Source: Amoebophrya sp. AT5.2 (Eukaryota > Sar > Dinophyceae > Syndiniales > Amoebophryaceae). Taken from it: a DNA stretch of 15,837 nt. A program made the translations under genes and the position numbers. Location of the stretch: assembly GCA_005223375.1 (NCBI GenBank), contig RXOD01005110.1, forward strand, positions 1-15,837, given 5' to 3'. Each line of letters begins with the position of its first letter. Within the stretch, counting starts at the first letter, position 1. This document shows positions 2,921 through 7,907 of the stretch, one piece after another. The notes beneath the pieces are model-generated. The model ran no database searches. It was not told the DNA's origin and saw only the letters and a program-made list of their open reading frames with translations.

Positions 2921-5900
2921 ATGAAGAGAAGGTTAAGACTCCTCTCGTCGCCTTTGTGGCTCGTACGGCTGCCGTCGTGCAGCTTGGTCTTTTCGTTTTT
3001 CGCCGCCGCGGCGTTGATCTCCCAGCTCGCGTCTGCCTGCCGGCCGAACCCGGCGCTCGCGTCGATACCCCAGTCCTGGGAGGACCAGGAGGCGCTTGTC
3101 CCTTTCCGGACGCATGGCGTTGAGGGCACGTTCATCTTGCTCAATCACGGCGCCTCGCTCCTCCGTCTCCCCGACGATGCAGTCCCGGGGGACCAGAGGA
3201 CAGAGGATGGTCTGGCTTCGTTTTTGCCGGCCGATTTGCGGGAGAAGCTCGGTTTTCCGGAAGAGCACGGCATCTGCCTCGCCATCCCGGACGTGTTCAC
3301 GAGAGGGAATCTGATCCGGCTAAGGTCCGACCTGTCCAGCTCGATGGTGAGCGAGGAACTGCTGAACGATTTGCTGGAGCAGAAGTTGGGCGAGAAACTC
3401 AAGCAAAGCACGGGCATCGGGCACGCAGCTGTTGCGACGGCGACGAAGGGCGAAGACTGGAGCCGACTAGGATTCGGGAAATCGGGAGAAACGTCGACGG
3501 AACAGGAGGAAACGGGAAATCGGGGAAACGGCAATGGTAAAAACGGGAACTACGCAGCCGCGGCGGCCGAAGATCAGCTCTTGCTGCGCAACAGCCTGCT
3601 TCTTCGCGAAAAGAAGAGGCAGGTGGAGCAGTCGCTTCCCCCCACTGGGAGGTACTGCAACAGTCTCGTCAACGACGTTACTTGGTGGAACCCGGAATTC
3701 CTCTCCAAATTTGAGCTCCTGCAAAGGTGGCGCGACTACTTGGCGAAGCAAACTGGGATTTTGCTGATCCTCGGCCCCAACGCGCCGAACGAAGAAAGGC
3801 TGAAACTGATCTTGCCCACCCCAACGGCGGGCGGCTCGGCGCCCTTCGCGATTGCGAACTACGTGAAGGGAAACAGCCTGGAAGAGGTCGCCGAAGTGGT
3901 GGAGCTCGTGAAGTCTGTTGTACAGACACCGGATCAAGGAGCCAAAGACGCGAATGCAGCAGAGGCAGATTTGGCCCAGATCCACCAGCAAGCGCCGATT
4001 TCGCTGATCTTCATCCTGGGCACAAGCGTTGAGTTTGCCACAGCGCTGGGGCTGCAGGTGCACTGCATGGCGCCGGTGGTCGACGGAGGGGAAATGAAAA
4101 TCCTTCCGGAAGATATCGTGGGAGGTGGAGGCGGGGGAGCTGCGCAGGGGAGAGACTTGGTGAAACACCGACTGCTCACACGAAATTATCCCGAAGTCGT
4201 AGAGAAGACAGCCGCTGATGAACTACCTTTGAGCGTGCAGCTCAATGGAGGGAGCAAGAAGGACGAGAAGCTCGACCTGAGTCGGCCCGAGGTGCGCGCG
4301 CGCGGAGAATTTGTCATGAACAACAAAACGCTGACGGCCAGCAGCCCTGCAACGTCACAGCGGGCGGCTTCCGGGAGGACCACCAGCACCAACCAAGTGC
4401 ACCTCGACCTGAACGGCGCCGAGTGGGAGTTTTTCGTGCAGCCGACGGCGGTCGGCGGGGGTCCTCTGGACGGGGCGGGACAGAGCCCGGACGCAATCTC
4501 CGCTGTCGCTGTGGGAAATATCAACGTGCCGTTCCCGCCACAGTCCGCGTTGAGCGGGTTGCAGCTCAAAATATCGAGTACGGAAAGAGTGTTCTACAAA
4601 CGAAGCGGGATAGTGTTGGATCCTCTGGCGGTCGAGGCAGAGGCCTACCGGCTGGTCATCGACGCCTGCGACTGGGCGTGCGAGGTCTTCATCGAAGGGG
4701 AGCCGCTGATTGTGCACAACGGCGGCTACGACCGCTTCTCTGTCGAGATACCGCGAAAGTTCTACAACTATGGCGGCGGCAAGGGCTTTGAACTGGTGGT
4801 AACGGCATGGGATCCGACGGATAAAGGCTGTGAGTTCGTGCAATCGCCGCCCGTGCCGTGCGTTGAGTGCTGCACCGTAGCGATACAACCGAGGGGGAAG
4901 CAGGTACGTACGTACTTTTTTAATTTAATAAAATAGTTGTGAATCTGAATGATGTTGATGAGAACTACATTCATGATGATCGTGTCGTAAAATAAGTTAC
5001 AGTATAGTACTAGAAAGATAAAGATTATGCGGCTTTGGCTTACTCTTACAGACACTACATACTTTCACATCAGGCGCTTGACCCCGGGTTTATCATGTAC
5101 AGTCCGGTCACGGGCATCTGGCGCGACGGCATTTGGATCGAGAAAGTGCAGCGGTGCTGGCTCAAGGATTGGTCGTGGCAGTACAACGCCTACGAAAAGA
5201 AGCTCACGCTCTTGAACTTCGACCTGTCGGCGGCGTGTTTCGATCCTGGCAGCTCGGGAGGGCGGACAGAAGGCCAGGCTGCAAAAACTTTCGCCGACTA
5301 CGGCATCCGCGCCACTCTAACGTCGTCCAGTGCGGCGTCCAAAACCGCAAGCGCGACGCTGCATCGCTTGCTGCGCGTCCCCTTCGAGGATGTTCTCGTA
5401 GACGCAAACTTTCAGAAGAACCGGATCGAGCTTTTTCTGGCTCCTGAAGCATCGGAAGATGAAAGCGAAGCCTCCTACTTCGCGGAGTGGAGCGTGGACT
5501 CCCCGACCTTGCACGACTTAAGATTGGAGCTGTTGATTGCCGGGAGCCCTGATACTGATTCGGACGAAAATATTCTTTCCTCCGCGAGCCACGCGCTTGG
5601 TCTTCGCGAGATCCGCATGGAGAGAAACCAGCTCTACCTCAACGGCAAGTTGCTCTTCCTCCACGGCGTCCTCCACCAAGGGTATTGGCCGGAATCTCTC
5701 CTCACCCCGCCCAACGAGAACGCTCTCAAACAGGAAGTCAAGGCCATGCGGGACGCGGGCTTTAACTCGGTGAGAGTGCACATGGTGGTCTTCCCCGAGG
5801 CGTTCTACCGGTGGTGCGATTTCTATATGGTGGGACCAGATGGTAAGTGGTCAAGTGGTAAGTGTTGCAGGACATGCCGAGCGGAGACCGAAAAAGAGGG

Positions 5901-7907
5901 CAGCAGTTGGAGGAAAGCCGTCTTGTCGCAGTCGGCGGGTTTGGAGGCGCTCTTGCACCCTACAGCCGACACCACCTAGAGTCCCTCTTTACCCTGCTGT
6001 CAGGCCCTATCGCGGCCAGTGTAGTCAGCAGCTGTCCGCTACCGCTGCACCCCTCTGCCTCCCAATCGGTTTCCTCTCGTGTTTCACACCCGGGCGGTTC
6101 AGAGCGCCTTAACAGTCTCCACCATTGCCATCTGGTCTCGCCATATTCTACGGTTTACTCGTTCTCCAGGACATGCCGAGCGGAGACGGACGAGTGATTC
6201 CGGCGTGGGACTTGCACAGGCGGAACACGCAAATGAGCGAAGGATACTCCATGGACGACAATACGGGCTTCGACGAGATCATACGGACGGGGGCAAGCTA
6301 TTCGAATTTCCTGGCCGAACTAAAAGCGATGATCTGTGGGCCGCTAAAGAGGTACTCGTACTACAATTTACTGGCGCTATGGTTTATGGATGAAGAGGCC
6401 TTTCGCCTTCGTTCTAAGTACTTAGATCTCCTTACACTTCACTTTGCTAGGACCTGGACCGCGAGGCGCGAGCGCGACCGCATTCAAAGTCAAATCCTAA
6501 TTCTTTGTCTTTCCTAGCTACCCAACATCCACAGTCGGCCATCCCTCGTTCAACAGGTACTCCTCGGTGATTATTTGGGTGCTTTTCAACGAGGGCTGGG
6601 GGCAGTCGAACACCATCCAGACTGTGGAGATTGTGCGGTTCTTCGATCCCACTCGTCTGATCGACGCGGTGAGTGGTTGGAACGACCCGATCATGTTCGG
6701 GGACCCGCACCCCGTGATCCAATTCGAGGAGGATCCCTTGAACAGACAGGGGCGGACGCGGTTCTCGCACGACGTCGGCGACATGTATATGAAGCGGCCA
6801 GGTGGTAAGTGGGGAACTGGTAAGTGCTAGGTGATGGGTCCCCTTGGACTTGGAAGGTGGCGGATTGCCCTAGGTGGCGAGCGGGTCAAGGCGCTCTAAA
6901 CCGCCCGGGTGTGAAACACCCGGGCGGTTTCAGAGATGCCCCATTGTGGGGGTAGGGGGTAGATGAGAGTGGTGGGTAGGGTCGGGGGTACAGCGTCGGG
7001 CGGTAAGCCATCGGAAGGTCGGGGGAGGCTGTAGTGGAAAACCACTGAATACAATGGTGATAGGGCCGCAAAGCAGGGCAAAATATGCCGCCAGGGTTGC
7101 AATTTATTGTCAGCCGTAGCAGGGGGCTGCAGAGCTGTGGGCGCCAGTCTTGCAGACCGCGGATACTTAGCCGCTTTTCTGCTTCTCTTGCGAACCCCTT
7201 CCCCACACAACCAATGGGGATCCCGAAGAGCCCCCCCAAAAAATCACTTACCACTTACCCACTTACCACCTGGTCCCGCCATAATGTACGACATCCACAA
7301 CTACGAAGGGAGCAACCCCATGCAAAATCTGACGAAGACGTTTGACATCTACCCCTTTCCTCTGGCGAACCGCCCGATTCTGGTGGGGGAGTACGGGGGC
7401 ATCGGCTACTCGCTGGGGGACGGGGAGCACGACTACGACGCGGACGCAAGCTGGGGCTACGGCGACGTGCGGAGGACGGAGAAGGGGTTCCTGGAAGCGG
7501 TGGGGGCGGTGTTCGAAAGACTCCGAATCCTGGCGTGCAAGAAAAACGAGAACAAACACAGCGTGAACAACGGGCTGCTGCAAAAAGAGCAGTACGGAGC
7601 CGCCGGTTCTCTGTCGGAGAAAATTGCGGAAGACATGGCGAAGTCGGACCAGGAGGTGGAAGTGGTGGCGCCTTATGCGAACAATACGTACAACGTGATT
7701 GGGGGAATCTACACGCAATGGACGGACGTGGAAACCGAGATCAACGGCCTGGTCACCTACGATCGGGTGCCGAAATTTGAGAACGGCAGACTGGGGGAGT
7801 TGCGGAAACTCTCGGAAAAACTCATCGCGGACTACTACGCATGCACAGGTCCACCCCGGTGGAGCTACGCTCATCTAGGGAGAAAAATAGAGATGTTTGA
7901 AGACTGA
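2921..7907 (+). CDS. secreted glycoside hydrolase family 2 enzyme, five exons, about 1261 aa
   Basis: Exons as I splice them: 2921-4903, 5074-5825, 6151-6351, 6557-6787, 7289-7907 (3786 nt, in frame). The ATG at 2921 opens an Arg-rich start and hydrophobic core, a signal peptide to about residue 39. Residues 40-550 have no recognised domain. At about 555-690 comes the GH2 jelly-roll sugar-binding domain, with the family signatures DPTD and QPRGKQ followed by YSPVTGIW. An Ig-like sandwich domain follows, then the TIM barrel: NGKLLFLHGV (851 on), HQGYWPE, GFNSVRVHM, the strand LLVLQDMPSGD, NEGWGQ with acid/base Glu991, and VGEYGG with nucleophile Glu1090. Retaining beta-glycosidase chemistry outside the cell or in the secretory route is expected; beta-galactosidase, mannosidase and glucuronidase cannot be told apart. 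Both catalytic Glu are kept, so the gene looks functional if the introners are spliced. Most related GH2 enzymes lack such a long N-terminal region. Confidence 0.88.
4904..5073 (+). other. intron 1 of the GH2 gene (GT-AG, 170 nt)
   Basis: The donor is CAG|GTACGTACGTAC and the acceptor CACATCAG|GCG. Phase 0 joining gives QPRGKQ-ALDPGFIMYSPVTG, which matches the conserved order of this GH2 signature. The intron is AT-rich, with several stop codons in the exon frame. A nearer acceptor (TTACAG ending at 5051) would add 22 nt and break the frame. Confidence 0.85.
5868..5888 (+). repeat. copy of downstream exon sequence inside introner 1
   Basis: The 21 nt here are identical to 6167-6187, which is exon 3 of the same gene, 299 bp downstream. 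Reading back two more codons, both copies encode VLQDMPSGD; those extra codons differ (GTG TTG here, GTT CTC in the exon) but are synonymous. After the match the sequences diverge and the GH2 homology ends, so this copy is not a usable exon. Confidence 0.9.
6079..6110 (-). repeat. 32-nt block shared with introner 2 (inverted)
   Basis: The reverse complement of this block matches 6888-6919 of element 2 with one mismatch. It contains CACCCGGGCGGTT followed by AGAGCGCCTT on the + strand. It ties the two elements into one family and, together with the terminal arms, shows that they sit in opposite orientations. Confidence 0.9.
6352..6556 (+). other. intron 3 of the GH2 gene (GT-AG, 205 nt; alternative acceptor at 6517)
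   Basis: The donor is AAGAG|GTACTCG. The acceptor CAACAG|GTACTCC joins in phase 2 to give GPLKRYSSVIIWVLFNEGWG, the right spacing for the GH2 acid/base motif. A second acceptor (TTTCCTAG ending at 6517) is also in frame and would add 13 residues before RYSS. I prefer 6556 because family members have about eight residues between the conserved Met-Ile and the hydrophobic strand. The octamer AGGTACTC occurs at both junctions (6350-6357 and 6555-6562). Confidence 0.75.
6888..6919 (+). repeat. 32-nt block shared with introner 1
   Basis: It matches the reverse complement of 6079-6110 with one mismatch. Here the block runs into a second, inverted copy of its own CACCCGGGCGGTT part, producing the hairpin at 6898-6930. 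Confidence 0.9.
6898..6930. other. perfect 15-bp GC-rich hairpin in introner 2
   Basis: AAACCGCCCGGGTGT (6898-6912) and ACACCCGGGCGGTTT (6916-6930) are exact reverse complements around a 3-nt loop. Element 1 carries only one arm of this palindrome (6079-6100 region). The hairpin would be very stable in RNA and may help bring the intron ends together; that role is inferred. Confidence 0.85.

Follow-up and report, generated by a model that had tools for sequence, protein, structure and literature searches.

Introner-like transposable elements with non-GT-AG borders in conserved genes of an Amoebophrya-like dinoflagellate

Non-canonical introns with RNA support have been reported from the Amoebophrya strains A25 and A120 (Farhat et al. 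2021; PMC7789003), some of them bearing inverted repeats of 8-20 nt and direct repeats of 3-5 nt and falling into strain-specific families, and the introner motifs of A120 start with TAT and end with at least three A. Another Amoebophrya has mainly GT-AG introns, and the accessible part of that account suggests that only part of the genus has the strange introns (PMC12005148). The elements analysed here, two of which interrupt a single GH2-family gene, resemble the A25 and A120 introners, as far as the accessible text describes these, in being repeated, in lacking GT-AG borders, in carrying inverted repeats near both ends and direct repeats at the borders, and in their predicted hairpins (PMC7789003); like the A120 motifs they start with TAT, and the nearest listed relative of the GH2 protein also comes from A120. 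They differ from what the same text describes in their longer arms (about 39 nt, or 22 nt in element 1, against 8-20 nt), in a repeat of 5 nt that abuts the element ends where the repeats of A25 and A120 vary in length and position, in the presence of GTAAGT within the arm and in the sequence itself (PMC7789003). The arm also lacks the closing run of three A that marks the A120 motif families, none occurring in the 45-nt pooled arm consensus, and the family is known from DNA alone, whereas the A25 and A120 introns have RNA support (PMC7789003). The earlier note had pointed to such introners in Amoebophrya, and rightly so: the kind is the one described in A25 and A120 (PMC7789003), and the present elements are a new family of it in another such genome. 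No description of this family was found in the literature searched, whose scope left out most subscription papers and supplementary files.

Introners of Micromonas and Aureococcus were reportedly described by Huff in 2016. The present family is like the canonical introners of these genera in that both resemble DNA transposons, have target site duplications (TSDs) and terminal inverted repeats (TIRs) and create introns (PMC9860276; Gozashti 2022), but those of Aureococcus have canonical splicing motifs, according to the accessible part of PMC7789003, whereas the borders of the present elements are not GT-AG. By description only, the elements can also be likened to the nonconventional introns of euglenids, which have variable non-canonical borders, an RNA structure that joins their ends and a removal mechanism given as unknown in the accessible accounts (PMC4770533, PMC6221363), though the lineage is unrelated and the present host has the dinoflagellate spliced leader. 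Again by description only, introner families occur in other dinoflagellates (Roy 2023, as summarised in PMC11453091). A comparable mass departure from GT-AG within one lineage is found in the tunicate Fritillaria, where introner transposons with weak sites have been suggested as one source, although the accessible part of that account describes neither an inverted repeat nor a target duplication (PMC13326754).

The window, a stretch of 15,837 nucleotides, is contig C1314 of the assembly searched here (50.7 Mb in 2759 contigs). The dinoflagellate spliced leader has 18 exact matches in the whole assembly and 50 with at most 2 mismatches, against 0 for its reversed control, and together with protein homology this makes an Amoebophrya-like syndinian dinoflagellate the best reading of the host. 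A conserved 18S pattern gave 1 match at 1 mismatch and 4 for its reversed control. The search for snRNAs returned no match for U1, which carries no meaning because U2 was not confidently found either (E 4.2 only, below its cut-off). Outside the gene discussed below, the window also holds tandem direct repeats with an 84-nt period in about 2.5 copies (87-298) and a 19-nt inverted repeat around a 5-nt loop (2280-2322).

The GH2-family gene spans 2921-7907 on the forward strand, to which all window coordinates refer, with exons at 2921-4903, 5074-5825, 6151-6351, 6557-6787 and 7289-7907 predicted from open frame and homology. Two of its interruptions, 4904-5073 and 6352-6556, are predicted on the same grounds to be ordinary GT-AG introns; the second has an 8-nt direct repeat, AGGTACTC, on both sides (6350-6562), and was not classed as an introner because the assembly search found no second copy of it. 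The other two are introner-like elements. Element 1 (5826-6145, 320 nt) starts with TATG, ends with CATA, matches the rest of the family and lies between copies of its target duplication TTCTA at 5821-5825 and 6146-6150. Its 5' terminal arm is at 5826-5864 and its shortened 3' arm at 6125-6145, and at 5868-5891 family sequence is replaced by an inset of 24 nt copied from the downstream GH2 exon (source 6167-6190, 23/24 identical). Element 2 (6788-7283, 496 nt), with the same TATG and CATA ends, lies between copies of ATGTA at 6783-6787 and 7284-7288, has its arms at 6788-6826 and 7245-7283 and runs in the orientation opposite to element 1, as judged from inverted internal matches. The two arms of element 2 are 85% complementary over 39 nt, and those of element 1 are 86% complementary over only 22 nt, the 3' arm being shortened.

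Much of this had been put forward in the earlier note. Its pair of related elements with inverted repeats is borne out by the 90% complementarity between the arm of element 1 at 5826-5864 and that of element 2 at 7245-7283, the 5-bp direct repeats that it named are exact and abutting at both elements, and its statement that no boundary within the repeat ambiguity is GT-AG holds at all six possible junctions of each. It had further claimed that removal of each element with one repeat copy restores GH2, and this too stands, in the frame as in the homologues: once both elements, each with one copy of its repeat, and the two GT-AG introns are taken out, the gene reads through 1261 codons without a stop. 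The homologue search passed 2021 proteins, scored 7999 candidates and listed 120, the best relative among the matches listed being a protein of Amoebophrya sp. A120 with 55% identity over the whole query. In an alignment of 12 homologues from the 120 listed, with A120, Polarella and Symbiodinium among them, the joint left by element 1 is gap-free in 12/12, and that left by element 2 in all 11 homologues that cover it, with at least 5 residues before and at least 7 after, some rows being gapped further out and P0003 stopping short of the joint. The first joint also agrees with solved GH2 structures, and the second, weakly, with the best of them.

The family extends far beyond this gene. A genome search for the terminal arm and a tabulation of duplication lengths had been proposed as checks, and both yielded what the proposal anticipated. 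A 25-base arm pattern with at most 3 mismatches has 892 matches in the assembly and 0 for its reversed control, so further copies exist; should every element carry two such arms, these matches suggest about 450 elements in the genome. A number of the arms listed are no more than about 300 bases from the start of a contig, so the family may cause breaks in the assembly and its copy number is perhaps underestimated. A viral route was rejected, the arm pattern having 0 exact matches in IMG/VR. The 57 elements examined, at loci L001-L079, form a non-random sample chosen by match to element 1, best arm match and distance from contig ends, arms close to contig ends being excluded. Forty-seven were paired regardless of repeat; the other 10 (7 with exact repeats and 3 one-base variants) were rescued by following 14 unpaired arms with a score in which a matching repeat counts, so that the rescue is biased towards repeats, L034, L057, L061 and L075 being left out. 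Element lengths range from 293 to 836 nt with a median of 461, none of the 57 being longer than 836 nt. The bodies align as one family with consistent relative orientation, and the 114 arms give the consensus TATGGCGGGACCAGATGGTAAGTGG, whose first four bases are 98-100% conserved. An abutting 5-nt repeat is exact in 41/57 (34/47 of those paired regardless of repeat, 7/10 of those rescued), one base off in 12 (9 and 3, respectively) and absent from 4, all among the 47, while exact 5-nt repeats at each of 14 other offsets number 0. In 7 of the 12 one-base variants the mismatch falls on the fifth base, in the orientation listed. Terminal inverted repeats, a duplication of fixed length, short bodies and many copies together characterise a TIR DNA transposon or MITE. 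A scan of the fetched loci for other inverted-repeat and TSD families found none above control, but it has little power, since it needed exact 10-base arms and detects even the present family hardly at all.

Many copies apparently lie inside protein-coding exons, from which the element and 5 nt must be removed exactly if the protein is to be made; retention would bring a stop or a frameshift at 47/47 of the loci whose strand was assigned. A codon model trained on long frames from other loci, with upstream and downstream flanks scored separately, was clear on both sides of 31 of the 57 elements and unclear at 26. After removal of the element and 5 nt, 23 of these 31 agree in strand and frame, the repeat-less L029 and L033 still among them, and the 8/31 without such agreement comprise 2 that share the strand only and 6 on different strands; in the first pass (n=47, 23 clear), 19 agreed, 1 had the same strand and another frame, and 3 had different strands. 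Frame agreement in 23/25, given the strand, would by our own arithmetic arise at random with a probability near 1e-9, taking one in three per locus. A plain open-frame test of the 47 favoured removal of the element plus 5 nt in 25, plus 4 in 16 and plus 6 in 6, thus preferring a wrong frame in 22/47, with a mean shorter side of 414, 248 and 241 nt, respectively. Joint proteins were built for 53 cases, of which 20 were printed and 9 searched, three of them chosen because the family was recognised. The DNA polymerase epsilon gene (L049) has two elements, at 1719-2128 and 2996-3476, and with both removed it reads 829 codons, each joint being flanked by gap-free alignment; in methionine synthase, too, the alignment is gap-free around the joint. 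Of six other joint pieces, one has a DUF938 match across the joint, two belong to no family found and three matched on one side only, one of these below its cut-off. Orientation relative to the gene is 18 vs 5 among the clear same-frame loci and 30 vs 17 at a looser cut, and the former skew suggests that body sequence may matter.

The elements in the GH2 gene are very probably MITE-like non-autonomous transposons that were inserted in its exons and now act as introns, removed together with 5 nt. That they are ordinary recent MITE insertions which are not removed, in genes that are broken or alleles that are being lost, seems quite improbable: identical repeats in 41/57 mean that many insertions may be young, and removal is read from DNA, but the frame is kept on both sides in 23/25 clear same-strand loci, 12/57 repeats differ at one base, so that some insertions are not new, and polymerase epsilon and GH2, the latter with no second copy detected in the assembly, each hold two elements and are otherwise open.

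If the elements are introns, their borders in general would not obey the GT-AG rule. With the junction slid through the repeat, GT-AG is possible in 4 of the 114 strand cases of the 57 elements, about 4 being expected by chance on our own estimate, and GT-AG sites supplied by element or target, as in canonical introners, were not found. GTAAGT is the consensus 5' splice site, and it stands inside the arm consensus, away from the junction, at positions 18-23, each of which is 82-91% conserved across the 114 arms. An ordinary spliceosome could conceivably cut at a GT and an AG inside the elements, some element sequence staying in the mRNA, as GTAAGT in each arm would allow; on the sense strand of the gene the 5' arm keeps this motif in 41/47 and the 3' arm in 34/47, a difference that is not significant by our own reckoning (13 vs 6 discordant). 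Splicing from the first internal GT to the last AG would, however, retain 18 nt or more (median 46) of each of the 57 elements, whereas GH2, polymerase epsilon and methionine synthase all align across their conserved joints without insertion, and internal splicing is the most improbable of the readings considered here.

On the reading that the elements leave with exactly 5 nt, a DNA transposon with inverted-repeat ends would insert into an exon, duplicating 5 bp, and the pre-mRNA would then be cut so that exactly the element and 5 nt are lost, the junction falling somewhere within the 5-nt repeat. Since the borders of elements 1 and 2 cannot be GT-AG, recognition would most likely proceed by pairing of the terminal arms, bringing the exon ends together, and since the arms are symmetric, removal would be possible in either orientation. 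Splicing had earlier been thought to be defined by the target duplication, which does mark where the junction must lie; recognition is more likely to occur via the inverted repeats, as the target 5-mers of the 57 elements have no strong base preference. The predicted RNA folds of elements 1 and 2 pair the arms, with z of -4.1 and -5.6 and 0/100 shuffles as stable in each case. Among the 50 of 57 elements that have no more than 10 mismatches, an element's own arms differ by 4.72 mismatches per 25 and the arms of different elements by 4.46 (1910/2000 permutations at or below the observed value), and selection on pairing or a hairpin requirement is unsupported because own arms match no better than foreign ones. 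GGUAAGU is typical of the 5' arm, and its complement in the 3' arm, ACUUACC, is identical with part of the 5' end of U1. The element might on these grounds carry its own U1 substitute in cis, needing no splice-site sequence and no trans-acting U1 and working in either orientation and in any target, a scheme we consider unlikely.

Empty sites occur at two other loci. At L002 (1330-2050) the host sequence of the occupied site, whose repeat is AGTAG, recurs next to it twice, once as a direct copy and once as a short inverted one, each element-free and with a single AGTAG. Inside the L071 element (1173-1735) lies, inverted, a 72-nt copy of that element's target, 70/72 identical, which spans the insertion point and has GATCG once only; should a U1 substitute in cis exist, this copy could record spliced RNA written back into DNA. 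Just inside the arm, the L048 element has 61 nt of its own flank, inverted and 85% identical, and the L079 element 27 identical nt. The natural empty sites of L002, the inverted empty target of L071 and the flank copies in L048, L079 and element 1 are new here. Own element-flank pairs match at 38 bits or more in 5/114 (4 elements), against 26/6384 for the flanks of other elements, all 26 falling on a single L006 flank, in which a further copy of the family evidently lies and without which the control has 0 matches; a looser cut gives 7/114 own pairs vs 5/676 in a sampled control. We read the flank copies inside elements as probable products of template switching during repair at the site, with a small residual probability that the 24-nt copy in element 1 is an assembly artefact.

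Loss of an element with one repeat copy in DNA would give the same product as removal from RNA, and the element-free copies at L002 would suit precise DNA-level excision of the kind seen with ciliate IESs, by which the genes would be restored in an expressed version of the genome. This appears very improbable, for we know of no split between germline and soma in syndinians, and no element-free form of the GH2 site was found in the assembly, where the joint of element 1 was searched. It is further opposed by the RNA-seq support for similar Amoebophrya introns, as given in the accessible text of PMC7789003. Removal of the present elements at the RNA level is what we infer from frame and homology.

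The new family suggests that the range of non-GT-AG introners extends beyond two Amoebophrya strains, and it offers exact junction predictions for RNA data from the host. One family that would make introns at hundreds of places can be followed here in DNA from target and empty site to product and, sitting in conserved genes in both orientations, it bears on the old question of where introns come from.
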